Source of the DNA: Bacteroidales bacterium
Lineage (GTDB): Bacteria; Bacteroidota; Bacteroidia; Bacteroidales; JAAYJT01
DNA: 64,000 nucleotides
Direction of reading: 5' to 3'
Assembly: GCA_014860575.1 (NCBI GenBank)
Contig: JACZJK010000013.1
Location: 1 to 64,000 of the forward strand
The notes under the pieces are model-generated. The model ran no database searches and was not told the DNA's origin. It saw only the letters and a program-made list of their open reading frames with translations. A program made the position numbers and the translations under genes. This document shows positions 49,137-63,842 of this stretch, piece after piece; the stretch's first letter is position 1, and each line of letters begins with the position of its first letter.

Positions 49137-49227
49137 ATTGCCCTGCCAAGCAGAATAAAACCGTTGCAGTACTAACCAATGCTGCGGACTAAATCGAGTG
49201 AAATATAGTGGAATGCGTTACAAGATG

Positions 49228-49271
49228 TGAGATATACTGGATTCGAACCAGTGACCTCTTGCCTGTCAAGC
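49228..49271 (-). other. attL: 3' part of a tRNA gene, probably tRNA-Val(GAC)
   Basis: Read on the minus strand, this piece runs from the anticodon loop (GCTTGACAGGCAAG) through the variable loop AGGTC, a perfect T-arm (ACTGG-TTCGAAT-CCAGT) and the 3' acceptor strand ATATCTC plus discriminator A. The loop TTGACAG gives anticodon GAC. The 5' half is missing: upstream sequence cannot pair with the acceptor or the anticodon stem. This is what integration into the 3' end of a tRNA gene leaves on the side away from the restored gene. Confidence 0.7.
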
Positions 49272-49435: not shown

Positions 49436-50668
49436 ATGGATAAGAACGTTACCATCTCCATTTACCTGGACAAAAGAAGGGCCAGGAAGGATGGAAAGTA
49501 TCCGGTAAAGATACGTGTTTTTAGGAATAAGCCCCGGATGCAAAAGCTCTACAAAACAAAATATGCTTATTCGGAAGAGGATTTTGAAAAGATATGGGTT
49601 GATAAGAGAAAACCTAAAGCTTACAATACTGAGCGCTTAAAGCTCACTGCTATTGAGAATGAAGCAAGTGATGTTGCAGATAATCTGTCCAGATTCTCAT
49701 TTGAGGCTTTCGAGCGGGAATTGTTTTCTTCGCAACCCAAGGAAGGTGATGTTAATACTTACTACAAAAGGGCGATAGACAACTTCAAACAAAACAACCA
49801 GATATCAACTTCCAAACTCTATGAATACAGCCTTGATTCATTACTGGAATATCATGGTAAAGACAAGCTAACATTCCAGACCATCACAACCAACTGGCTG
49901 AAAGGCTATGAAAGGCACATGGTTGAGGAAAATGGCAAGAGTAAAACAACGCTGAGCATGTATGTGAGAACTCTTCAGGCAGTTTTCAATAATGCGATTG
50001 AAGATGGAGTGATTGTGAAAGATGAGTACCCATTTGGTAAACGCAAATATAGTGTTCCAAAGCCCAAAGGGATTAAAAAGGCTTTGACAGCGGATCAGCT
50101 AAAGAAACTGTATGAAGCAATCCCAGAAAATGATCTCCAGCAGAAGGCCAAGGATTTCTGGTTTTTCTCTTACAGCTGCAACGGGATGAATTTTAAGGAT
50201 ATCGCCTATTTAAGGTATAAAAATCTTTCAGATGACACATTGAAGTTCTCCAGGGCGAAAACTGCAACAACTGATGCTGACCAAGCTCCAGTGGTTGTTT
50301 ATTTAACAGATTTTTCCAAGGGTGTAATTGAAAAGTATGGCCAGCCAGACAAATCACCTAACAAATTAATCTTCTCAATCGTTGACCTCATGGATTCACC
50401 TGATGAGCAATACCGCAAACTAAAGCTTTTCGTCAGGTTTGTAAACCAGCATTTTCTTAAATTTGCCAAAAGTGCGGGAATAGATGAAAAGATAAGCACC
50501 TACTGGGCAAGACATTCATTCGCAACAACTGCGATTCGTAGCGGGGCCAGCATGGAATATGTAAGTGAAGCCCTTAGTCACAGCAGTATGGACACAACAA
50601 GGGGCTACTTCGCTGGATTTGAGGATGAGAAGAAAAAAGAAATTGCCCGGAAACTGATGGAGTTTTAA
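49436..50668 (+). CDS. Tyrosine recombinase (integrase) of the Bacteroidota SAM-like type
   Basis: A 410-residue site-specific recombinase. An N-terminal AP2-like arm-binding part (YLDKRRARKDGKYPVKIRVFR) and a SAM-like core-binding domain (about 110-200) precede the catalytic domain. Box II residues are Arg359-His360 (YWARHSF) and His382 (LSHSS), and the nucleophile is Tyr391 (RGYF). The first catalytic Arg of box I is replaced: the region reads CNGMNFKD with Asn252. This occurs in related Bacteroidota integrases. It integrates and excises the element at the adjacent tRNA site. Confidence 0.93.
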   Translation: MDKNVTISIYLDKRRARKDGKYPVKIRVFRNKPRMQKLYKTKYAYSEEDFEKIWVDKRKPKAYNTERLKLTAIENEASDVADNLSRFSFEAFERELFSSQPKEGDVNTYYKRAIDNFKQNNQISTSKLYEYSLDSLLEYHGKDKLTFQTITTNWLKGYERHMVEENGKSKTTLSMYVRTLQAVFNNAIEDGVIVKDEYPFGKRKYSVPKPKGIKKALTADQLKKLYEAIPENDLQQKAKDFWFFSYSCNGMNFKDIAYLRYKNLSDDTLKFSRAKTATTDADQAPVVVYLTDFSKGVIEKYGQPDKSPNKLIFSIVDLMDSPDEQYRKLKLFVRFVNQHFLKFAKSAGIDEKISTYWARHSFATTAIRSGASMEYVSEALSHSSMDTTRGYFAGFEDEKKKEIARKLMEF

Positions 50669-50686: not shown

Positions 50687-52792
50687 ATGAAAGTACCAGA
50701 AGAATTTGAAGATACCGGATATCATGATATGTTTATCTCTTTGATAAACTCCTCTGATTTAATCATACGGGCAACCTTGACACCAGAAAGCAAGTCCGAG
50801 GAAATTGAATTTAACGGTTATCAAAGCTTTAAGTCTTTCAGTGCAGACAATAAACTGTTTTTTGAACGTGGCAAGAAAGATATTATCACAATCATAAACC
50901 ATAAACCTTCCAAGTTTGAAAAACTTGTCTTTATAAGCTCAAAGCTCAATGAAGCAAAACAAGCTCTCAATAGATTAACACAATCAGACGGCAAATATAA
51001 ACATGAAGGATTCCGCTTCATGAATCTTATGGAACAGGAAGCTGAAGCGAAAACTCTCACTGAGAATGATATTCAGGAATATTATCAACTAATGCACAAG
51101 TCAGGATCGGAATTTATTAACTACCTGACCACTATACAAGCCTCTATACAAAATTCATCAGATGGTGATTTCTCTTCACCAGACCCATTATCTGGAAGCC
51201 CGCCACGATCAAGTAAAAATGATCCGCTGGCCTTTTTCGAGTTTTACTTTGTATTGGCAGGCATTTCTGACCTTTACGAATTAATAGTGATCGAACCCTA
51301 TGAACCCGATCAACAAATTACAAATGAGAATGACCAAAGTCAGGAAATTTCGGATTCAAGTCACGATACTTCCCCCGATTTATTTGATGAACCTTTCGAG
51401 AAAATTCTTCAAGCAAGGATTAATGAAGAGTTTTACAAGACTTTGAAATATATTGATGAACGTGTTGATCGTAGCGCAAATGAAGCCGAAATCACGCTAT
51501 TTCTAAAGAAGTTATTGTTTCGCATCAAATTCATAAACAACAATTTACATAGGGATTTAGATGAGGATGAAAAAGAAATCTGTGGAAATGCTTTAAAAGC
51601 AATAATCAGGTATATTTTTAAGAAACATGAACCCTTTACGCAAGAATTCCGAACCGAAAGCTTTTTCAGTAAAATAGTTGGCGTCACTCAGCAACTGCCC
51701 ATGATTGAAAAGCCAGAGAGACTTGATAATTTCGAGTCTAAAGCAGATGATTACTCCATCATTAACTTGACTCCAAGGATTACTCAGGAAATTCCTAAGA
51801 AAATAGTGGAAATGTATTATAAACAGTATAATCCAGAGGATTACATTGTGGTAGATTTAACATCCAACTTTGAAAGAAAACATTCTGAGGAGATTAAACG
51901 TACAGCTCCTGAGCCGCCTCGCCTATTTTATGATATCTATGGATTGGTCGAAGATGATAATATGATAGGATTGATGATGATGCCAATGCCTGCAAAGCTG
52001 TCTATTTCGCAGACTCAGCTAACTCTTTTTAATAATTTGCTCACAGATAAAGGATTTGAACACATTGATTTCAGCAAGAGAACATTTCAAACAATCTCTT
52101 TTGAATACTTTAATTATGATTATATACCTGAAGTACTTCACAAAGGAGTTATGCCCTTTTTATATTATTATCGTAAGGGCTTTTTCACCGGTTACAAATT
52201 ATTAAGGGCTAACAAACAAGAAGAGAATTCTAAGAGGAATCTAAGATATATCAACGAAGTAACATCTCCACCTCCAATTTCAGACTTTAAAGATTCTGCA
52301 ATCTATGTTTATTGGAGGGACATGGGATTAAAGCAAGGTAGGTTATATTCCATCTGGCAAACAATCCTTGAAAACCCAGATGAGTTTGCGGGTCTGATCA
52401 AGAATGAAAAGATAAGGCAAGAACAACCTTCTGATCGCAGAACTATAAGTGCAACGAGAAAAATAATCGAGGATTCATTCGATGAAATGGGCAGTAAAGG
52501 TCAAAAAGGTTGGCAATATGCTTTCAGAACAGAAAATGATTTTAAAAAATTTGTCAGCCTGTTAGAGAAATATTTCATGCTGGAGTCTTATGAATTGCCA
52601 GAAGAAACGTTACTGACACGACCAAAAACAAAAACCCAGATAGCTCAAGCTATTCATCGCATATACAAAGAGTTAGGTGAAGAGCTCAAAAGCGATACAG
52701 AATTTTTTAAAATTATCAGATATTTAAAGGTCTTTAATGAATCAGAGGATGCTGAAATTTATAAATCCATTACCCGGAGTAGTGGATTTTAG
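50687..52792 (+). CDS. Unrecognised 701-residue element protein
   Basis: A long soluble protein that I do not recognise. The first 130 residues are mixed alpha/beta. An acidic low-complexity linker (about 160-245, SSPDPLSGSPPRSS, then NENDQSQEISDSSHD) follows. The central 250-500 is helical, with a KFINNNLHRDLDEDEKEICGNALKAII stretch. The C-terminus (about 590-700) has repeated helices, including a KTKTQIAQAIHRIYKEL segment that could be a DNA-binding helix-turn-helix. It begins 18 nt after the integrase gene in the same direction, so it is likely in its operon. A role in mobilisation, replication control or exclusion is possible but not shown. Confidence 0.75.
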   Translation: MKVPEEFEDTGYHDMFISLINSSDLIIRATLTPESKSEEIEFNGYQSFKSFSADNKLFFERGKKDIITIINHKPSKFEKLVFISSKLNEAKQALNRLTQSDGKYKHEGFRFMNLMEQEAEAKTLTENDIQEYYQLMHKSGSEFINYLTTIQASIQNSSDGDFSSPDPLSGSPPRSSKNDPLAFFEFYFVLAGISDLYELIVIEPYEPDQQITNENDQSQEISDSSHDTSPDLFDEPFEKILQARINEEFYKTLKYIDERVDRSANEAEITLFLKKLLFRIKFINNNLHRDLDEDEKEICGNALKAIIRYIFKKHEPFTQEFRTESFFSKIVGVTQQLPMIEKPERLDNFESKADDYSIINLTPRITQEIPKKIVEMYYKQYNPEDYIVVDLTSNFERKHSEEIKRTAPEPPRLFYDIYGLVEDDNMIGLMMMPMPAKLSISQTQLTLFNNLLTDKGFEHIDFSKRTFQTISFEYFNYDYIPEVLHKGVMPFLYYYRKGFFTGYKLLRANKQEENSKRNLRYINEVTSPPPISDFKDSAIYVYWRDMGLKQGRLYSIWQTILENPDEFAGLIKNEKIRQEQPSDRRTISATRKIIEDSFDEMGSKGQKGWQYAFRTENDFKKFVSLLEKYFMLESYELPEETLLTRPKTKTQIAQAIHRIYKELGEELKSDTEFFKIIRYLKVFNESEDAEIYKSITRSSGF

Positions 52793-52905: not shown

Positions 52906-53247
52906 ATGAAGACAATAAGCTTTAACAACCTTCCCGAAGCGGTGGGGTTACTTATCGAAAAAATTGACAGGCTCGAAAGAATCCTGTCAGAGCAAACGAC
53001 TCAAAGTCCAAGTGTAGCGCAACCAGAACTGATGACAGTTCCACAGGCTGCCAAATTCCTGAACCTGGCTGTGCCGACAGTTTACTCGATGGTCAGCAGA
53101 GGAGAATTTCCTTACATGAAAAGATCAAAACGCTTGTACTTTTCAAAAGATGACCTGATGAACTATGTACGTGAAGGTCGCCAACAAACCAATGCTGAAA
53201 TCATGGACAGTGCCATTGATGGTTTAACTAAATCAAGGAGGGCATAG
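52906..53247 (+). CDS. Excisionase-like helix-turn-helix protein
   Basis: A 113-residue DNA-binding protein with a MerR/excisionase HTH_17 domain (LMTVPQAAKFLNLAVPTVYSMVSRGEFPYMKRSKRLYFSKDDL, about 41-84), an N-terminal coiled segment (AVGLLIEKIDRLERILSEQ) and a polar tail. Small proteins of this kind steer the direction of recombination in integrative elements. It ends 2 nt before the primase-helicase gene, so the two are coupled. Confidence 0.88.
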   Translation: MKTISFNNLPEAVGLLIEKIDRLERILSEQTTQSPSVAQPELMTVPQAAKFLNLAVPTVYSMVSRGEFPYMKRSKRLYFSKDDLMNYVREGRQQTNAEIMDSAIDGLTKSRRA

Positions 53248-53249
53248 TC

Positions 53250-54884
53250 ATGGAAAAGATGCAATTTGTTGAAGCAATAGGTATAAGTAAAGCCGACTTT
53301 ATTATACCTGAAGTTAGCACTGCACAAACGCAAGCAGCGCAATCCATTGGAATGTGGAGTCAGATCGAAAACAAGATTGTTCCACTTGAGAAGAAATCCA
53401 TTGCACGTGGAATTTTCATCTACACGGTCAACGATCAAAGTGTTCAGCTTGATAAGCTATATAATGCCGGTATTCTGAGCTTCCTTAGATCCAGAGGATT
53501 TTGCAAGAGATATATTGATGACTGTACTTATCTGTTGATCCGGCAAGAGGAAAATAAAATTTATGAGGTTGAAATTGCAAATATTCGTGATGAAATCAAT
53601 ATCTACCTCAAAAGCTTGTCCAGAGGAATTGTCTTTGAATACGCAGGGAAAACAGTAAGGGTTAGTTATGAAAACATGGAAGAGCTTTTCTTAAGGCAAA
53701 TTCATTTGATTCTAAACTACAGTACACTGGGATTCCTTGAAAATCACGACACTCCAATTTTAGCAGATACCAAAACTGAAATGTTTTTCCCATTCCGTAA
53801 TTGCGTAGTAAAGGTGATTCAAGGAAGAGAGGGTATCGTGCCAATGAATTATAGTGAACTGGATAATCTTTGCATCTGGAAAAACCAAATAATAGATCAT
53901 GACTATAGTCTTGATTCCAATGATCCTATATTCAAGTCATTTGTAGGAAATGTTGCGAATGATGCTTCTGATGATCCAGGTCAACCCAGATTCAAGGGAT
54001 TTAAATCTGCGATTGGGTATTTATTACATTACTATCAGCATAACAGTCTTGGACGTGCGGTCGTAGCTTATGATGCTGAACTGACAGAACGGGATAGGCC
54101 CCAGGGTGGTACAGGAAAAGGAATAATTGCACAGGCTATTCGGCAATTAAGAAACTCAGCAACAATAGATGGTAAAAAATTTAACCCAGCACAAAGGTTT
54201 TGCTTCCAGGGTGTTGATAAAGAAACTCAGGTTATCTACCTGGATGATGTGAAACCCGATTTTGATTTCTTGAGATTCAACAGCGTTTTAACTGAAGGGA
54301 TTGAAGTTGAGCAAAAATACAAAGCATCGTATAAGATTGAAATAGATATAAGCCCCAAAATCTATATCACTTCTAACGTCATACTGAATGCTGAGGGAAA
54401 CACTGCTCAACGCAGAATGTATATCTTGGAGTTCTCTTCTTTCTATTCGGATAAACAGAGGTCTGATCCAATGAAAAATCCTATTGATACTGTACATGGC
54501 GGAATATTTTTCGATAAACAGGTTTGGAATCAAACAGAATGGAACCGCTTTTTCACATTTATGTTTGAATGCTGCAATTTTTATCTAACCAATGGATTGC
54601 ATCCCTATGGATTGAGATCGGTTAACCAGAACCGCTTGATTCAATTCACAAGCCGGGAATTTTACGATTGGATACTACAAAGTGAGATAGAACCAAACCT
54701 GGAGTATGATCAGGCTGAATTGTTTGATGAATTCAAATCTCAGTTTTATAGTGGAGAAGATGAGCTTTTCTCCCAAACTTTTTCCAAATGGTTGAAAATA
54801 TTTGCTGAAACCAATGGACTAGTTAAATCTGGTAGAAAAAGTTCCGGAAAAATATTCATTAAGTTTACTCCCAGCAGGCAATAG
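53250..54884 (+). CDS. Primase/SF3-helicase-like replication protein (DUF5906 type)
   Basis: A 544-residue protein. The C-terminal half is a superfamily 3-like helicase: Walker A GGTGKG at 286-291, Walker B VIYLDDVKPDF near 330, and an Asn sensor in KIYITSNVIL. The N-terminal half has no clear primase motif. Such proteins replicate excised elements in Bacteroidota. It follows the HTH gene by 2 nt. It probably acts on a circular form of the island. Confidence 0.82.
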   Translation: MEKMQFVEAIGISKADFIIPEVSTAQTQAAQSIGMWSQIENKIVPLEKKSIARGIFIYTVNDQSVQLDKLYNAGILSFLRSRGFCKRYIDDCTYLLIRQEENKIYEVEIANIRDEINIYLKSLSRGIVFEYAGKTVRVSYENMEELFLRQIHLILNYSTLGFLENHDTPILADTKTEMFFPFRNCVVKVIQGREGIVPMNYSELDNLCIWKNQIIDHDYSLDSNDPIFKSFVGNVANDASDDPGQPRFKGFKSAIGYLLHYYQHNSLGRAVVAYDAELTERDRPQGGTGKGIIAQAIRQLRNSATIDGKKFNPAQRFCFQGVDKETQVIYLDDVKPDFDFLRFNSVLTEGIEVEQKYKASYKIEIDISPKIYITSNVILNAEGNTAQRRMYILEFSSFYSDKQRSDPMKNPIDTVHGGIFFDKQVWNQTEWNRFFTFMFECCNFYLTNGLHPYGLRSVNQNRLIQFTSREFYDWILQSEIEPNLEYDQAELFDEFKSQFYSGEDELFSQTFSKWLKIFAETNGLVKSGRKSSGKIFIKFTPSRQ

Positions 54885-55558: not shown

Positions 55559-57250
55559 ATGCCCACATTACAGTTCAAAGGCAAAAATAGCATATGGAAT
55601 CATCATTTAAGTGTTCCTTATCATTCTCTTGAAGAAGTTGAAGAACTTCATTTTCAACCTGAAAAAAGTGAAGGCAACTTCATTGTTGAAGGTGATAACC
55701 TGTTAGCTCTTAAAGCCTTGTTGCCAAAATATGCAGGCAGAATTAAATTCATATATATTGATCCTCCATATAATACGGGTAAAGAAGACTGGGTATATTC
55801 TGACAAGGTTAATAGCCCTTTAATTAGAGAATGGTTAAATAAGGTTGTATCAAAGGATGACTTAACTAAGCATGACAAATGGTTATGTATGATGTCACCA
55901 AGAATAAAGATGTTACATGACTTGCTTGATGAAGGTGGTTTAATTTTTATTTCTTGCGATAATAATGAAGTTCATCATCTTACAATGATTATGGATGAAA
56001 TTTTTCAAGATTCAAATCATTTAGGTAATATTATTTGGAAAAATGCAACTGACAATAATCCAACCAACATTGCAACTGAACATGAATACATATTATGTTA
56101 TGCCAAGAACAAGGAATTTATAGATAGTGAATGGAAATCTCCCCTTTCAGATGCAAAAGATGAATTAATCAAAATAGGCGCTGATTTAACAAAAAAACAT
56201 TCAGACGAAGAAGATCTTATCGATGCTTATAAGGAGTGGTTTAGAGAAAACAAGAAATTCCTAGGTAAGCTTGACCGTTACAAATATATAGATAAAGGTG
56301 GTGTTTACACTGGGAGTCAAAGTGTACACAACCCTGGAAAAGAAGGTTACAGATATGATATAATACATCCAGATACTAAAAAGCCCTGTAAAGAACCTTT
56401 AATGGGGTATAGATTTCCTGAATCCACAATGAAGGAACTAATTGAAAATGAGAAAATAATATTTGGAGATGATGAAGATAAAATAGTTGAACTTAAAGTT
56501 TATGCTCATGAGTATGTAGATAAGCTTCCAAGCTGGATTGATATAGACGGTCGTTTAGGTGCATATGATTTGCGTGAATTATTTGGCAATGTCCCATTAA
56601 AAAACCCAAAACCAGTTCAATTAATAGAACACATACTTCCTTTTGTTACTAAATCTAATGATATTATTCTTGATTCTTTTGCAGGCTCAGGAACAACAAT
56701 GCATGCAATTCATGCTTTAAATCAGCTTGATGGTGGAAATCGCAAGTGTGTACTTGTTCAAATGACCGAATCTTCAGAAAAAGAACCTGACAAAAATATT
56801 TGCAGGGATATTACGAGAGAAAGGGTGAAAAGGGCAATAGAGATGTTTGGGTATGATGCCGGCTTCAAGTATCTCCGTGTAGGTTCTCCTATCGACCCTG
56901 AAACCATGTTAGACGGAGACCTGCCCACTTATCAACAGTTTGCTGAGTATGTGTACTACCTAGCAACAGGCGGACATTTGGCTGATAAAAGTAAAGTAGA
57001 TGCTTCACAGCACTTTGTAGGCATGGAAAGCGGACAAGCCGTTTACTTAATCTACGAGCAGGACATGGATAAGCTTACTCGTTTGGCACTCACTCTTCAA
57101 ATCGCAGAATCAATTGTAAAGCATAGCCCCGGTAAGCGCAGGGTTGTATTTGCCCCTTCATGCTTTTTGGATGAAGAGTACATGAATGCCATGCAAATTG
57201 ATTTTGTCTCAGTTCCCTACAATCTGTTTGAACGCAAAAATAATAGATAA
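55559..57250 (+). CDS. mod: Type III restriction-modification methyltransferase (Mod), N6-adenine
   Basis: A 563-residue DNA methyltransferase. Catalytic motif IV is DPPYNTG at 68-74, which precedes the SAM-binding motif FAGSGTT at 374-380, giving the beta class order typical of type III Mod. The segment between (about 170-340) would be the target recognition domain and has the least familiar sequence. It transfers a methyl group to adenine on one strand of the recognition site and is needed for cleavage by Res. It lies 2 nt from res and directly after the broken XRE gene. Confidence 0.93.
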   Translation: MPTLQFKGKNSIWNHHLSVPYHSLEEVEELHFQPEKSEGNFIVEGDNLLALKALLPKYAGRIKFIYIDPPYNTGKEDWVYSDKVNSPLIREWLNKVVSKDDLTKHDKWLCMMSPRIKMLHDLLDEGGLIFISCDNNEVHHLTMIMDEIFQDSNHLGNIIWKNATDNNPTNIATEHEYILCYAKNKEFIDSEWKSPLSDAKDELIKIGADLTKKHSDEEDLIDAYKEWFRENKKFLGKLDRYKYIDKGGVYTGSQSVHNPGKEGYRYDIIHPDTKKPCKEPLMGYRFPESTMKELIENEKIIFGDDEDKIVELKVYAHEYVDKLPSWIDIDGRLGAYDLRELFGNVPLKNPKPVQLIEHILPFVTKSNDIILDSFAGSGTTMHAIHALNQLDGGNRKCVLVQMTESSEKEPDKNICRDITRERVKRAIEMFGYDAGFKYLRVGSPIDPETMLDGDLPTYQQFAEYVYYLATGGHLADKSKVDASQHFVGMESGQAVYLIYEQDMDKLTRLALTLQIAESIVKHSPGKRRVVFAPSCFLDEEYMNAMQIDFVSVPYNLFERKNNR

Positions 57251-57252
57251 GC

Positions 57253-59778
57253 ATGTATTTAAAAAAATATCAAATACGGGTTGTAAATGAGCTGAAACAC
57301 TTTTTCCAAACGGCTAAGACTCAGAAAACAGCCTTTGAAACCGCAGCAAAGGTTTTGCCTGAGAACATACGTAACAATCTGAACTATGTGCAGTCCACAT
57401 TTGATACAATTGGCAAACCCTACATAGATAATTGCCGCAATGGATTGGGTCAATATTATCCACGTACTTCACTTAAAGTTCCAACAGGTGGCGGTAAAAC
57501 CATTTTGGCGGTAGAAGCAATAAGAGAGTATCAGACCCTTTTTGCAGAGCGAAAAACTGGCTTAGTCGTCTGGATTGTTCCTAAGGAAACAATCTACACG
57601 CAAACAGTTGATAGGCTAAGGGATAAAAGTCACCCTTATCGGCAATTATTAGACCAGGCAAGTGGTGGCAAAACAATCATTAAGGAGAAAGGTCAAAAAC
57701 TATCACTTCAAGACATTGAAGAAAACTTGGTGGTTCTCTTCATTATGATTCAATCCATCAGTAGGGCTAATAATTCAGAAGCCCTTAAAGTATTTCAGGA
57801 TAGTGGTGGATATGACAGTTTCTTTCCTCAGGACAACAGGCATGACCTACATGGACAATGGTTGAAAGAAGTACCTAATTTGGATACAATGTGGGTGAAT
57901 GGTGAACAGGCACAATTAGTTACAAGTCTTGGTAATGCTGTTAGAGTCTCAAAGCCCCTTATTATCATTGATGAAATTCACAGAGTATTCACCCCAACCG
58001 CAAAAGCAACCATTGACAACCTAAACCCTGAAATTGTTTTAGGGCTATCAGCCACACCAAAAGAAAGCATGAATTTGCTTTCTACTGTCACAGGTCTTGA
58101 ATTGAAGGATGAAGAAATGGTAAAACTTGATTTGCATATTCGTCCTCCTGCCAGTGGCTCAGGTAATGACTGGAAAGGAATGATTAGTCAAATCAAGGAA
58201 CACCGTGAACAACTAGAAAACAAGGCAATAGAATACCGTTGGAACACGGGTGAGTACATTCGTCCAATCGCACTAATTCAAGTAGAGCGTACAGGCAAAG
58301 ACCAGCGTGGTAAAGGTTTTGTACATAGTGAAGATGTCAAGGAACACTTAATTGAAATGGGTGTAAATCCTGATGAAGTGGCTATAAAATCGAGTGCTCA
58401 AAACGACATAGAAAACATGGACCTTTTCGCTCCTGAATGCCCAGTTAGGTTCCTAGTGACCAAAGAAGCCTTATCCGAGGGTTGGGATTGTTCTTTTGCC
58501 TATACCTTGGGTATTATTCCTAATACTGCCTCAAACACAGGGGTTACACAGCTCATAGGCCGAATTTTACGGCAACCACGAGCTAAAAAGACAGGCATTC
58601 CATTGCTGGATGAAAGTTACGTGTACTACTGCAAAGGTGACACGAGAAGCCTATTGGATAGAGTAATTACAGGATTCAAGGAAGAAGGTCTTGGTGATCT
58701 AGTTTCAAAAATGAAAGTCCAGGGGCAAGAACATGTTAATCCTACAAAGAATGTTACAATAAAGGATGAGTTCAAAAAATACGAATACGCTTTCTACCTT
58801 CCAGTTTGGCTGATTTTTAACAAAGAAAAGGACTCAAAGAGGAGATTTAGCTACGATTTTGACATAAGACCCTTCATTGACTTTCAATCTTATAAAATCT
58901 CCGAAGAACTATTAACCCGAATTACATTCTCTCTCAGTGAAGAAAACAAAGAGAAAAAGGCTTTTAGAGTAACAATAAATGAAGAAAGCCAGGCCGCAAT
59001 CGCAGAAGAATCCATTGAATCAAGATTTAAAGGTTTTATTTCGAGGGGCTATATGACAAGACGTTTCTCTGAAGTGATAGACAATTCATTTTTGGCAAGA
59101 AGAATCTGTAATGAGGCTATAGATGTACTAATGGACAAAATTGGTGAGCAAAAGTTTTCAGAACATTTCTCATACATAACTTCGCTGATAACGAAAGACC
59201 TTAAAGAAAACCGCCAGAAACAGGAAGAAGAAATCTTTTTAAACCACCTGAAAAACAACAGCCTAGAACTTACTGTGAGTGATGACAAATCAATTGGTTA
59301 TAAAGTTCCAAGCACAGACACAATCACCATTACAAGTATTCCGAACACATACACTAAAAACCTTTACTCAGATGTTGAAGTAACAACTATGAATAGCCTC
59401 GAAAAATCTGTTGCTTCCATACTCGAAAATCAAACAAAGCTTCTTTGGTGGTTCAGGAATCGAGTTGGTAAAAATTGGTATGCCATTCAAGGTTGGCATG
59501 AACATAAAATCAGACCTGATTTTGTGGCAGCCAAAAAGAAAGATGATGACACCATTGAGGTCGTTTATATCATAGAGAGCAAGGGCGAACACTTAGCAGC
59601 AAATCCGGACACTCTTTATAAGAAGAAAGTCATGGATGAAATGACACGTCTCAAAAAGAAAGGTAAAATGATTGCTTATCAGACTAAATTTAAAATTGGA
59701 ACACTCAATGAATCAGTAGAAGCGTACTTAATCGAAGAGAAACAGGAAGAAGAAGAATTGAAAAAATTAATGAAATAA
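57253..59778 (+). CDS. res: Type III restriction enzyme helicase/nuclease subunit (Res)
   Basis: An 841-residue SF2 motor with a nuclease. Walker A PTGGGKT is at 77-83, DEIH at 240-243, LSATPKE near 257 and motif VI QLIGRILRQPRAKKTG near 434. The C-terminal PD-(D/E)XK nuclease shows RPDF (Asp756) and IIESKG (Glu775, Lys777), so both activities look intact. It forms Mod2Res1-2 complexes that cut DNA near unmethylated sites. It starts 2 nt after mod. Confidence 0.93.
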   Translation: MYLKKYQIRVVNELKHFFQTAKTQKTAFETAAKVLPENIRNNLNYVQSTFDTIGKPYIDNCRNGLGQYYPRTSLKVPTGGGKTILAVEAIREYQTLFAERKTGLVVWIVPKETIYTQTVDRLRDKSHPYRQLLDQASGGKTIIKEKGQKLSLQDIEENLVVLFIMIQSISRANNSEALKVFQDSGGYDSFFPQDNRHDLHGQWLKEVPNLDTMWVNGEQAQLVTSLGNAVRVSKPLIIIDEIHRVFTPTAKATIDNLNPEIVLGLSATPKESMNLLSTVTGLELKDEEMVKLDLHIRPPASGSGNDWKGMISQIKEHREQLENKAIEYRWNTGEYIRPIALIQVERTGKDQRGKGFVHSEDVKEHLIEMGVNPDEVAIKSSAQNDIENMDLFAPECPVRFLVTKEALSEGWDCSFAYTLGIIPNTASNTGVTQLIGRILRQPRAKKTGIPLLDESYVYYCKGDTRSLLDRVITGFKEEGLGDLVSKMKVQGQEHVNPTKNVTIKDEFKKYEYAFYLPVWLIFNKEKDSKRRFSYDFDIRPFIDFQSYKISEELLTRITFSLSEENKEKKAFRVTINEESQAAIAEESIESRFKGFISRGYMTRRFSEVIDNSFLARRICNEAIDVLMDKIGEQKFSEHFSYITSLITKDLKENRQKQEEEIFLNHLKNNSLELTVSDDKSIGYKVPSTDTITITSIPNTYTKNLYSDVEVTTMNSLEKSVASILENQTKLLWWFRNRVGKNWYAIQGWHEHKIRPDFVAAKKKDDDTIEVVYIIESKGEHLAANPDTLYKKKVMDEMTRLKKKGKMIAYQTKFKIGTLNESVEAYLIEEKQEEEELKKLMK

Positions 59779-59912: not shown

Positions 59913-60815
59913 ATGAAAACAACGTCCAGAAGCACCAAAATCGCTCAAAAAACAATTTACGCAGCCTTCATTATTCTCAAAGAAGCTGGTGGTGAAATGC
60001 GGGGAAAAGAAGTAGTGGACAAAATAAGAGAAACTGTCGAGTTTGATGACTATGAAATCCATGTTTATGAAAAAACAGGGTATATAAGATGGGAAAGCGT
60101 CTTCCATTTTTACACCATTGATTGTATGAAAGCCGGTTACTTGAGAAAGCAGAAAGGTGTTTGGTACTTAACTGATGAAGGTGAGAAGGCAATTCAGCTC
60201 GGCCCGGAGAAGCTTCTTGAGACAGCCACAGAGAAATATCGAGAATGGGATACAAAGAATAAAAAGAAGAAGGTAGACTCGCCTGATGAAATTGAGGGTG
60301 CTGGAGAAAAGGCACAAAAACAAATAGCACTACTTGATCAATATGAATCTCGTGCTTTAGACGGTATTCGTGAATACATAATTGACAAGAACCCTTATGA
60401 GTTCCAGGATATGGTTTCTGCTTTACTCAAAGCAATGGGATATTACATAGCTTTTATCGCACCTAAAGGTCGGGATGGTGGAATTGATATTATCGCTTAT
60501 ACCGATCCACTTGGTGTTAAATCTCCTCGAATTATAGTCCAGGTAAAGCATCGTCCCGATACCAGCATTTCCTCTGATGACATTCAACGGTTATCAGGTA
60601 CAATGAAGCGCAGCAGTGATTTTGGGCTTTTTGTTACCTCTGGTTCCTTTAGCTCACCTGCTTTTATTGAGGCAAGGTCTGCTGACAAACATATTGAACT
60701 CATTGACTTTACCAAGTTTGTTAATCTATGGCAGGAATACTACACTAAAATGCCTGATGATGACAAAAACCTACTTCCCTTACAACCGATCTACTTTTTA
60801 GGAAGCAATGAATAG
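59913..60815 (+). CDS. Mrr-like restriction endonuclease with N-terminal winged helix
   Basis: A 300-residue protein. The N-terminal about 95 residues are an Mrr_N-type winged helix (KTIYAAFIILKEAGGEMRGKEVVDKI). After a charged linker, residues about 165-285 form an Mrr catalytic domain: LLKAMGYYIAFIAPKGRDGGIDIIAY, then IIVQVKHR, giving Asp192 and Gln210-x-Lys212 of the D-QxK nuclease centre. Mrr enzymes cut modified or foreign DNA. It lies 134 nt after res in the same direction, so it may cut incoming methylated DNA that escapes Res. Confidence 0.9.
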   Translation: MKTTSRSTKIAQKTIYAAFIILKEAGGEMRGKEVVDKIRETVEFDDYEIHVYEKTGYIRWESVFHFYTIDCMKAGYLRKQKGVWYLTDEGEKAIQLGPEKLLETATEKYREWDTKNKKKKVDSPDEIEGAGEKAQKQIALLDQYESRALDGIREYIIDKNPYEFQDMVSALLKAMGYYIAFIAPKGRDGGIDIIAYTDPLGVKSPRIIVQVKHRPDTSISSDDIQRLSGTMKRSSDFGLFVTSGSFSSPAFIEARSADKHIELIDFTKFVNLWQEYYTKMPDDDKNLLPLQPIYFLGSNE

Positions 60816-60862: not shown

Positions 60863-61858
60863 ATGGCCACTGAGATTAAAACGTGGGAAATTGTTGACGG
60901 GAATTTAACTCAGATCAATACTACCCTTGCCGAGAATCAACGAAGAGAAAAAGAGGATTTGGAACAATGGATCAAAACAAACCCTCAAATCATAGGCGAA
61001 GATATCCAGATAATTGGCGAGCAGGTTCAAACCAAGTCAGGATATCTTGATTTTCTTGGAATTGATAACAGCGGCAACACCGTAATAATTGAACTCAAGC
61101 GTAATAAGTTGCCCAGAGAAGCAATTGCCCAGGCCATTGATTATGCATCTGATGTTGCCACATGGAATATTGACAAGCTGAGTGAGATATGCCAATCCAA
61201 CATGAAACAAGGCTTAGAAGATTATTTAAGCGAAAAATTTGATGAGTTTAATATTGAGGAAGTTGTGATCAACAACAGCCAGCGTCTTTTACTTGTCGGG
61301 TTCGGAATAGAAGAGGCAACAAACCGCATGATTGAATGGCTTTCTAATAATTTCAATTTAAGCATAAATGCCGTAATGCTGAACTATTCCAAAACATCAT
61401 CAGGTAACGAAATTTTATCCCGCACTGTTATTATTCCCGAAGAAATTGAAATTCAAAAAGCAAATAAAAGAAAATTCACAATTGCTCGATCTGATGAAGC
61501 CGGAACTTATGATGCCGATAAATTAAAAGACCTGTTAAAGAAATATCTGAATAAGAACCTGCATTCTGCCCGTAGGTTGAGAGAAATCATGTTGCCAGCG
61601 TTATTAACAGGCAAAACACTAACTCGCAGCCAATTATTAAAAGAGTTTGTCAAATCTGGCGAAGCAAAAGATGAAAGTCAGGCTGGCTATTTCATGTCAT
61701 TAATATCTGGTCAGTTAGGCCATGAATGGAAGGATTATTTAAGGCAAATCATTGAGTATAGCTATCCGAGTTATTCCTGGGAAAAAGACAACTTTAAAAT
61801 CAGGGAACAATACCTCACCTTGATCAAGGACCTGTTGAATGAAATTAACCAGCAGTAA
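60863..61858 (+). CDS. DUF91/NucS-like nuclease domain protein
   Basis: A 331-residue protein. The N-terminal half (about 1-200) matches the DUF91 (EndoMS/NucS C-terminal-like) nuclease fold: GYLDFLGI with Asp63, VIIELKR with Glu77 and Lys79, and a following AIAQAIDYASDV helix. The C-terminal part (about 205-331) is a helical region starting DADKLKDLLKKYLNK that I do not recognise; it may bind DNA or a partner. It follows the Mrr gene by 47 nt. Co-transcription with the restriction genes is likely. Confidence 0.85.
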   Translation: MATEIKTWEIVDGNLTQINTTLAENQRREKEDLEQWIKTNPQIIGEDIQIIGEQVQTKSGYLDFLGIDNSGNTVIIELKRNKLPREAIAQAIDYASDVATWNIDKLSEICQSNMKQGLEDYLSEKFDEFNIEEVVINNSQRLLLVGFGIEEATNRMIEWLSNNFNLSINAVMLNYSKTSSGNEILSRTVIIPEEIEIQKANKRKFTIARSDEAGTYDADKLKDLLKKYLNKNLHSARRLREIMLPALLTGKTLTRSQLLKEFVKSGEAKDESQAGYFMSLISGQLGHEWKDYLRQIIEYSYPSYSWEKDNFKIREQYLTLIKDLLNEINQQ

Positions 61859-61952: not shown

Positions 61953-62957
61953 ATGAATGACTTAATCAAATACTACCTCAAATCCTTACAGTCATCCACG
62001 TTGTCTTTGAAAAAGAAGACTCTATTGGTTGATAAGCCCTGGGCGATGATTGATGAGGACGGAGAAATTCAAAAGCTGATTTTCAAACGGGATAAAGGTC
62101 TGATACTGTCAAAGAATGGTAAGGTAACTCTTGGATCATGGGATTATTTCCCCGAATCAAAATCACTTTACATTGACAGGTCTGTTGATAAATTACTTTT
62201 AAACGAGCAGTTTATTGATGAAAACGTGCTCATTCTAAAAAAAGATGGTACTGATAACCAGCTCTACGCTTTAGCAAATGAGAACACCATACCTGATTAT
62301 AACGTTGCCGGGTATCTCGAAACCCTTAGATTTGAAAAGTTGAAGATCACGGAAGTTGCACTTTACACCGGAGAGATTATTCAGATACATAATACTGATA
62401 AAAAATCTCCATTACAAATAGCTAATCATGCAGTAGAAACATTTGATGCTAATAAAGAACCTGCAAAATTACCCGATGGAATCTATGTTTCGCAATGTAA
62501 AAAATTCACCTATATTATCCAAAACGGGAGAATTCAGCGAGTCGCTACTAATTATTCATTAAAATCAAACGAGGGAATAACATACGAAATTGCTGATGGT
62601 GAATTAAACATAGAAAATAATTTAGGCAATATAATCACTTTGAACGGGAGACTTATAGACTCAAAAAAAATATATACTAATCTGGAGAATCCACTAGGCT
62701 ATGGCTATGCAATTATGATTGACAGCAGTCATATTAGTAGAATTACTTTTACTAAAAAAATTACTCTTAAAGAAGGCTATACTGTTATAATTGAGCAACA
62801 GTCCGCTCATAAAATCAGCAAAGGAGATAAAATTATTTTTTCTGAGCCCATTTCCCCACTGCCTGATGGTAAATATAGAATCAGTGACTGGTGGGGAACA
62901 AATGTATGGGAGAGTTGGTGGGGGACACTTAGAGTAAAGGATTTAACAGTAATATAG
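61953..62957 (+). CDS. Unrecognised beta-rich protein of the defence cluster
   Basis: A 334-residue protein of unknown family. The N-terminus (MNDLIKYYLKSLQSSTLSLKKKTLLVDKPWAMIDEDGE) precedes a body dominated by short beta strands with turns such as FPESKSLYIDRSVDKLLLN. Two similar motifs, KLPDGIYVSQCKKFTYI near 172 and PLPDGKYRISDWWG near 304, suggest repeated small beta domains. There is no signal peptide or membrane segment, and no catalytic motif is evident. It is co-directional with the nuclease genes, 94 nt after DUF91, which suggests a sensor or effector role, but this is only context. Confidence 0.7.
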   Translation: MNDLIKYYLKSLQSSTLSLKKKTLLVDKPWAMIDEDGEIQKLIFKRDKGLILSKNGKVTLGSWDYFPESKSLYIDRSVDKLLLNEQFIDENVLILKKDGTDNQLYALANENTIPDYNVAGYLETLRFEKLKITEVALYTGEIIQIHNTDKKSPLQIANHAVETFDANKEPAKLPDGIYVSQCKKFTYIIQNGRIQRVATNYSLKSNEGITYEIADGELNIENNLGNIITLNGRLIDSKKIYTNLENPLGYGYAIMIDSSHISRITFTKKITLKEGYTVIIEQQSAHKISKGDKIIFSEPISPLPDGKYRISDWWGTNVWESWWGTLRVKDLTVI

Positions 62958-63041: not shown

Positions 63042-63842
63042 ATGCCACAAAAATACGTCCTTGCCAGCAACACAAGCAGTATTAACAAACACTTCAATCT
63101 TGAGTCTTCACATCAAGATTTTAAGAACAACCTGATTATCACACCTGGGAACCAATCATTGATCATTACCCAGGAGAACCCGCATAAACTTACCGTCAGC
63201 ACTTTTGGATTAACACCTTCCTGGTCAAAACAACCAATGCAGATCATCAATGCCCGGGCTGAAGGTGATAAAAATCCTGAAAACAATCCAAACTACTCAG
63301 GCTCCAAAGCAATCTTTCTAAAGAAATCATTCCGGAATCCGCTTTTCAATAAAAGGTGCATTGTAATTGCTGATGCCTTCATTTCCTATTGTAGCGATCA
63401 ACCCTTCCTTGTTTATCTGAAAGGTAAGAAACGACCTTTCGGGATGGCAGGAATATATGATATCTGGACTGATCCGGCAACAGGTGAGAAGCTGCATTCC
63501 TATGCTATTATCACTGTACCAGCCAACAATCTCCTGCAAAAAATCCCTGTATCAAGAATGCCTGTAATATTGCCATATGGAGCTGAAACAAGCTGGCTAA
63601 AGGCATCAAATCACCTGCATGATATACTGGCTAAAATTATTCAATACCCCTCAAAAGCGATGAATGCGCATCAAATTAGCAAAGAAGTTGATACCACCGC
63701 TACCACTGAAATGTTAAGGCCCATCGGTGAAAAGCTTGCCAGTGAGGTTAGGAAAATATCATTTCCTAGCTCACATTATGTTTCAAAGAAGAAACCTACG
63801 GAGCCTGGGAAGTTATGGTTTGATAACTCACCGAAATCGTAA
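63042..63842 (+). CDS. SRAP (HMCES/YedK)-fold protein lacking catalytic residues
   Basis: A 266-residue protein with the SRAP fold. The landmarks INARAE (Asn70, Arg72, which bind the DNA backbone), ADAF at 110-113 and a conserved SRMPVIL segment near 169 are present. In active SRAP proteins Cys2 crosslinks to abasic sites, helped by a Glu in the GFYEW region and a His in IHDRMP. Here the start reads MPQKY (no Cys2), the Glu position is Ser115 in AFISY, and the His position reads IPVSRMP. So DNA binding is plausible, covalent capture is not. It is co-directional with the defence genes, after an operator-like repeat. Confidence 0.85.
   Translation: MPQKYVLASNTSSINKHFNLESSHQDFKNNLIITPGNQSLIITQENPHKLTVSTFGLTPSWSKQPMQIINARAEGDKNPENNPNYSGSKAIFLKKSFRNPLFNKRCIVIADAFISYCSDQPFLVYLKGKKRPFGMAGIYDIWTDPATGEKLHSYAIITVPANNLLQKIPVSRMPVILPYGAETSWLKASNHLHDILAKIIQYPSKAMNAHQISKEVDTTATTEMLRPIGEKLASEVRKISFPSSHYVSKKKPTEPGKLWFDNSPKS

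Follow-up and report, generated by a model that had tools for sequence, protein, structure and literature searches.

Features at the left end

The window, that is, the whole stretch of 64,000 nucleotides analysed here, lies on contig C13 of assembly G000 (4.4 Mb, 66 contigs, 95% complete). Its right-hand part holds a piece of a tRNA gene on the minus strand, followed by a tyrosine recombinase gene and further genes on the plus strand. These features are listed below with the far-end tRNA found on a second contig, C37.

49226 to 49271, minus strand: attL, the host's original 3' half of tRNA-Val(GAC) (from sequence; native allele by comparison with genome G002)
49258 to 49271, no strand: putative crossover interval, from the allele-marking base 49257 to the end of identity
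49388 to 49408, plus strand: two direct repeats GTATGCAAA with 11-bp spacing (from sequence; role putative)
49436 to 50668, plus strand: tyrosine recombinase (integrase), 410 aa, IntCTnDOT-like (Pfam and family comparison)
50687 to 52792, plus strand: 701-aa protein with no family match, directly after the integrase
52906 to 53247, plus strand: AlpA/excisionase-type helix-turn-helix protein (HTH_17 4.6e-14; TIGR01764 excise)
53250 to 54884, plus strand: DUF5906 primase/helicase-like protein (PF19263 4e-6; phrog_28855 2e-43)
55559 to 57250, plus strand: type III restriction-modification methyltransferase, Mod (MTase_III 7.9e-154)
57253 to 59778, plus strand: type III restriction enzyme, Res (REase_III 8.4e-134)
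59913 to 60815, plus strand: Mrr-type restriction endonuclease (Mrr_cat 8.2e-23)
60863 to 61858, plus strand: NucS-like nuclease / PDC-S11 candidate defence protein (family match)
61953 to 62957, plus strand: 334-aa protein with no family match
63042 to 63842, plus strand: SRAP (SOS-response-associated peptidase) family protein (PF02586 5e-35)
C37:22577 to 22652, minus strand: intact tRNA-Val(GAC) (second-copy search and tRNA call)

Read from the letters, the minus strand of 49228-49271 is GC-TTGACAG-GCAAG-AGGTC-ACTGGTTCGAATCCAGT-ATATCTC-A. It comprises the anticodon loop (GAC), the 3' strand of the anticodon stem, the variable loop, a perfect 5-bp T-arm, the 3' acceptor strand and the discriminator A; of the 5' anticodon stem no more than two bases remain, the gene being broken immediately 5' of the anticodon loop. 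Within the window this sequence is found a single time, where shuffles predict 0.00 occurrences. No complete tRNA was called by ARAGORN and Rfam in the 64,000 nt, as only half a gene is present. The recombinase gene starts 164 bp from this remnant, and the G+C content falls at the junction from 0.42-0.45 to 0.34-0.40. The preliminary description of this DNA had reported a 44-nt minus-strand tRNA piece without a 5' half, followed by a tyrosine recombinase. This is borne out by the parts read above and by the Pfam domains of the recombinase. An intact tRNA upstream of 49,228, which that description said would refute its reading, is absent from the tRNA calls.

An intact tRNA-Val(GAC) at the far end

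Contig C13 ends at 66,131 bp, so the far end of the region cannot be reached by reading to the right of 64,000. We therefore rely on the assembly as a whole, in which the remnant sequence has exactly two copies at no more than three mismatches, the remnant included. The second copy (C37:22578-22619, one mismatch) is the 3' half of the intact tRNA-Val(GAC), the only gene for this tRNA detected in the host. Remnant and second copy align over 46 nt (49226-49271), with the single mismatch at 49257. The preliminary description had predicted an exact second copy on the same contig to the right of 64,000, at the end of an intact minus-strand tRNA-Val(GAC). The intact gene and a copy within a plausible element length were found, but the copy differs by one base and lies on C37, not on C13. 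Beyond the intact tRNA, translations named by eye include a dipeptidyl peptidase, XerC, EF-Tu and ribosomal proteins, together with tRNAs, and the DNA on this side of C37 reads as ordinary chromosome.

The last 118 bases of C13 are repeated exactly at the ends of C8 and C58, and bases 25-141 of C37 at the end of C9. C13 and C37 stop within opposite ends of a single repeated IS-like sequence (TGGATAAACC...GGTATATGCA), and it is this repeat that broke the assembly. The 7 bp GGAAACC precede the IS on C13 and follow it on C37, a target duplication that makes the two contigs neighbours; the other resolvable pair, C58/C9, has the duplication TTTAAAG. We infer the order C13-IS-C37 from the IS ends and the target duplication rather than from read-through. 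The IS body is absent from G000. Its ends may resemble those of the IS21 type; a PF01695 search of the host's own genome found no convincing IS21-type gene to go with these ends. The element thus delimited runs to C13:66013, through the IS, and along C37:142-22577, that is, 16.8 kb on C13 and 22.5 kb on C37, or about 39.2 kb plus the IS. This agrees with the earlier proposal that one mobile element extends from the remnant past 64,000. Both ends of an uncharacterised element of some 40 kb are fixed in this way, and their orientation can be read directly.

A decayed second tRNA-Val lies at about C37:22668-22735 (L002:1591-1658), some 15 bp past the intact gene. It retains the 5' part and some of the T-arm, has lost the 3' acceptor end, has CCGCCGCGGCGG where the anticodon-stem/D-arm region would be and carries the native T allele (see below). 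It may be a tandem duplicate or the trace of an older event; its presence beside the intact gene shows that the history of the site is more complex.

Allele assignment and the crossover interval

In genome G002, from the same genus, the tRNA-Val(GAC) next to the same dipeptidyl-peptidase gene is intact, and the element is absent. At the mismatched position G002 and the remnant have T, and the intact tRNA on C37 has C. The shared T identifies the remnant as the host's original 3' half, as expected from the earlier proposal that it is the footprint at the end opposite the restored tRNA, and the C allele means that the functional tRNA ends in the element's half. On this assignment the crossover must have lain to the right of 49257 and not beyond 49271. 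This one-base difference alone, without experiment, narrows it to 14 bp, over the 7-bp anticodon loop at 49263-49269.

The pairing of tRNA and dipeptidyl peptidase is also present in G014; G001 has the dipeptidyl peptidase without a tRNA-Val beside it. The left flank of the element is a lactate permease gene, which was not found in either same-genus genome (G001 or G002), so only the right flank can be compared; the left flank of G002 is different. More distant genomes have the permease at 65-72% DNA identity, with one short match at 85%, and in none of the relatives does an empty tRNA join lactate permease and dipeptidyl peptidase. The contrast between occupied and empty site is seen, through G002, on the right side only, the left flank not being conserved.

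The integrase and its family

The integrase matches Phage_int_SAM_5 (1e-18) and Phage_integrase (3.1e-11); the arm-binding match is weak (Arm-DNA-bind_5, 7.7e-4, slightly below the cut-off), and so are the matches to solved structures (XerA, XerD). Contigs of viral origin searched with the integrase contained no relatives. The position of the first catalytic Arg (252) is occupied by Asn in 27 of 28 family integrases, including that of the window, while R273, two residues before the invariant catalytic Lys, is invariant (28/28). In the IntCTnDOT subgroup the first catalytic Arg is in one of two alternative positions (PMC8138268), and from its place relative to the Lys, R273 probably corresponds to the alternative Arg of CTnDOT. 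The integrase shares with this subgroup (CTnDOT, NBU1; PMC8138268) its occurrence in Bacteroidota, SAM-like core-binding and catalytic domains with an arm-binding match below the cut-off, and the replaced first Arg with an invariant downstream one. CTnDOT differs in having a conjugation module, none being seen in the window's element. A GTATGCAAA pair matching that of the left end is found next to the tRNA of the far end (about C37:22508-22528), and the two pairs are likely arm-type integrase sites.

Scanning one genome per species gave 19 relatives of the integrase (32-56% identity), and whole-genome searches added more. Because the Rfam scan misses half tRNAs, these were recognised instead by an explicit test for a T-arm, run alongside controls. 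Among the 28 family integrases that have upstream sequence, all from Bacteroidota and counting that of the window, 27 are preceded, mostly 164-282 bp upstream of the start, by a tRNA 3' half that lies on the opposite strand and breaks off at the anticodon loop. The controls gave about 1% in shuffled sequence, 0/28 on the other strand and 1/82 in windows further upstream. Five relatives with enough contig have an intact tRNA on the side predicted, at a distance of about 5-33 kb: Gln-CTG in Maribellus, Met-CAT in Aquimarina, Arg-TCT in Pukyongia, Val-TAC in 2_bin.22 and Asn-GTT in UTBCD1. In these five, remnant and intact tRNA share 45-47 identical bases; a sixth relative, L050, is left out of the count, as the stretch comes from a different contig. 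The survey suggests a rule for Bacteroidota islands, namely a tRNA 3' half about 200 bp upstream of an IntCTnDOT-like integrase and, beyond, its intact partner.

The tRNA targets comprise nine isoacceptors over the 27 family integrases, and the target changes 17 times on the integrase tree, against 18.0 for shuffled labels. The closest pair of integrases (L051/L053, 79.6% identical, from the same bog_950 MAG) has Met(CAT) versus Val(TAC). It is possible, though we put it forward only tentatively, that in this clade the anticodon-loop cut is fixed and the choice of tRNA almost free, the enzyme perhaps reading a generic anticodon stem-loop dyad while the attP-borne tRNA half mainly sets the target. 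If so, the integrase would be retargetable by a change of attP.

Cargo

All DNA of the window from 49,272 onwards is foreign, so that the restriction, Mrr, SEFIR/TIR and GmrSD genes of the element are mobile cargo and not core genes. The 701-aa protein after the integrase had no match in Pfam, PHROGs, NCBIfam or PADLOC, nor by tblastn in the related loci examined; a protein of the AlpA/excisionase type occurs near related integrases in 15 relative loci. Between the SRAP gene and the IS lies a gene for a 616-aa protein with no family assigned. After the IS follow, in order, an unassigned protein, a methyltransferase, a histidine phosphatase, bSEFIR, LRR-TIR, a trypsin-like protease and GmrSD (HEC-06/Orf5-like), and then unassigned proteins, ArdC, an SbcC-like protein, RecT, a metal hydrolase, DUF4120 and small genes. 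The bSEFIR-type (PADLOC 8.7e-112), LRR-TIR fusion and trypsin-like protease genes are consecutive on the minus strand of the element (L004:2910-7857). The element likely carries many anti-virus genes. This cargo, the IS, the one-base allele difference and the family-wide pattern go beyond the preliminary description.

Nature of the element and alternative explanations

We conclude with high confidence that the region is an integrative element of about 39 kb, with an IS inserted later, which integrated site-specifically into the host's only detected tRNA-Val(GAC). As in tRNA-integrated islands, the integrase (49436-50668) adjoins a displaced tRNA fragment (49226-49271), and an intact tRNA in the same orientation stands at the other end (C37:22577-22652). 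The recombinase would have acted on the tRNA gene of the chromosome (attB) and a 3' half carried by the element (attP), exchanging their strands over the anticodon loop. The dead fragment at the left junction (49226-49271) would be what remains of the host's own 3' half, while at the right junction the host's 5' half would have received a 3' half from the element, so that the tRNA stayed functional. Excision may be carried out by the integrase together with the HTH excisionase-like protein. No relaxase, conjugation or virion gene turned up among the scanned proteins, and movement between cells would therefore probably depend on a helper.

The join through a repeated IS that is not itself assembled leaves room for a different arrangement, in which C13 and C37 carry separate elements in tandem at tRNA-Val, or are not adjacent at all, the remnant then belonging to an older, partly lost element. 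The decayed tRNA-Val next to the intact gene would fit such a history. However, the 7-bp duplication pairs C13 with C37, while C58 and C9 pair separately, GTATGCAAA pairs stand at both ends, and a tandem array would need a third copy of the 3' half, of which there is none at three or fewer mismatches. We regard this arrangement as very improbable. Still less credible, to the point of being practically negligible, is that the 44-nt piece arose by decay of a tRNA gene or resembles one by chance, with no connection to the recombinase. Partial tRNA genes do arise in other ways, and the decayed tRNA-Val on C37 is one at hand, but here the tRNA is interrupted precisely at the anticodon loop, the same layout recurs at 27 of 28 integrase loci against about 1% in controls, and a matching far-end intact tRNA is present in this genome and in five relatives.

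What kind of element has integrated is a separate matter from how it did so. The RecT, SbcC-like and metal-dependent hydrolase proteins match phage families, and a DUF5906 primase-like gene lies downstream of the integrase; satellites typically have an integrase followed by a primase-like gene. It is nevertheless unlikely that the element is a prophage or phage satellite instead of a genomic island or mobilizable element. No virion structural or packaging gene (capsid, terminase, portal or tail) was found by Pfam in 30 element proteins, ten of which were also compared with PHROGs, the viral contigs searched held no relative of the integrase, and the element carries ArdC, which is typical of elements that enter by conjugation. 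The same Pfam scan of 30 proteins, a set without small ORFs and the IS gap, also found no relaxase, conjugation or secretion gene, neither the relaxase of an ICE or IME nor the T4SS of an ICE.

Relation to known islands

It is already established that integration into tRNA genes occurs at a small number of fixed sublocations, of which the anticodon loop is one (PMC4383910, PMC8371274). In Islander, 3,760 islands are recorded as having a 3' tDNA fragment, and anticodon-centred sites are recorded for 2,083 (PMC4383910). Its class A has an intact tRNA at one end, a displaced 3' fragment at the other, a tyrosine integrase by the fragment and an anticodon-loop crossover, and does not differ in principle from the element described here, whose ends lie on two contigs because the IS broke the assembly. 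The element is thus a member, not yet characterised, of a well-known insertion class. In Bacteroidota, the 10K genomic island of Riemerella anatipestifer likewise has a tyrosine integrase adjoining a tRNA (Arg), and its integration and excision have been demonstrated experimentally (PMC6764341). It differs in its size and in the 53-bp repeat described downstream of the Arg-tRNA.

Additional tRNA-like sequences at related loci

A second integrase of the family is encoded in G000 (C32:96192-97430, L084; 34% identical to that of the window), and 311 bp upstream of it lies the 3' half of a Gln-type tRNA. The locus probably represents another island of this kind, truncated where the contig stops. 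In relative G019 (L030:887-963 and 1238-1308) a complete tRNA-like gene (37.9 bits), whose anticodon loop is odd, stands at a distance of about 275 bp from the integrase-side Met(CAT) 3' half, and the two have the T-arm and acceptor end in common.
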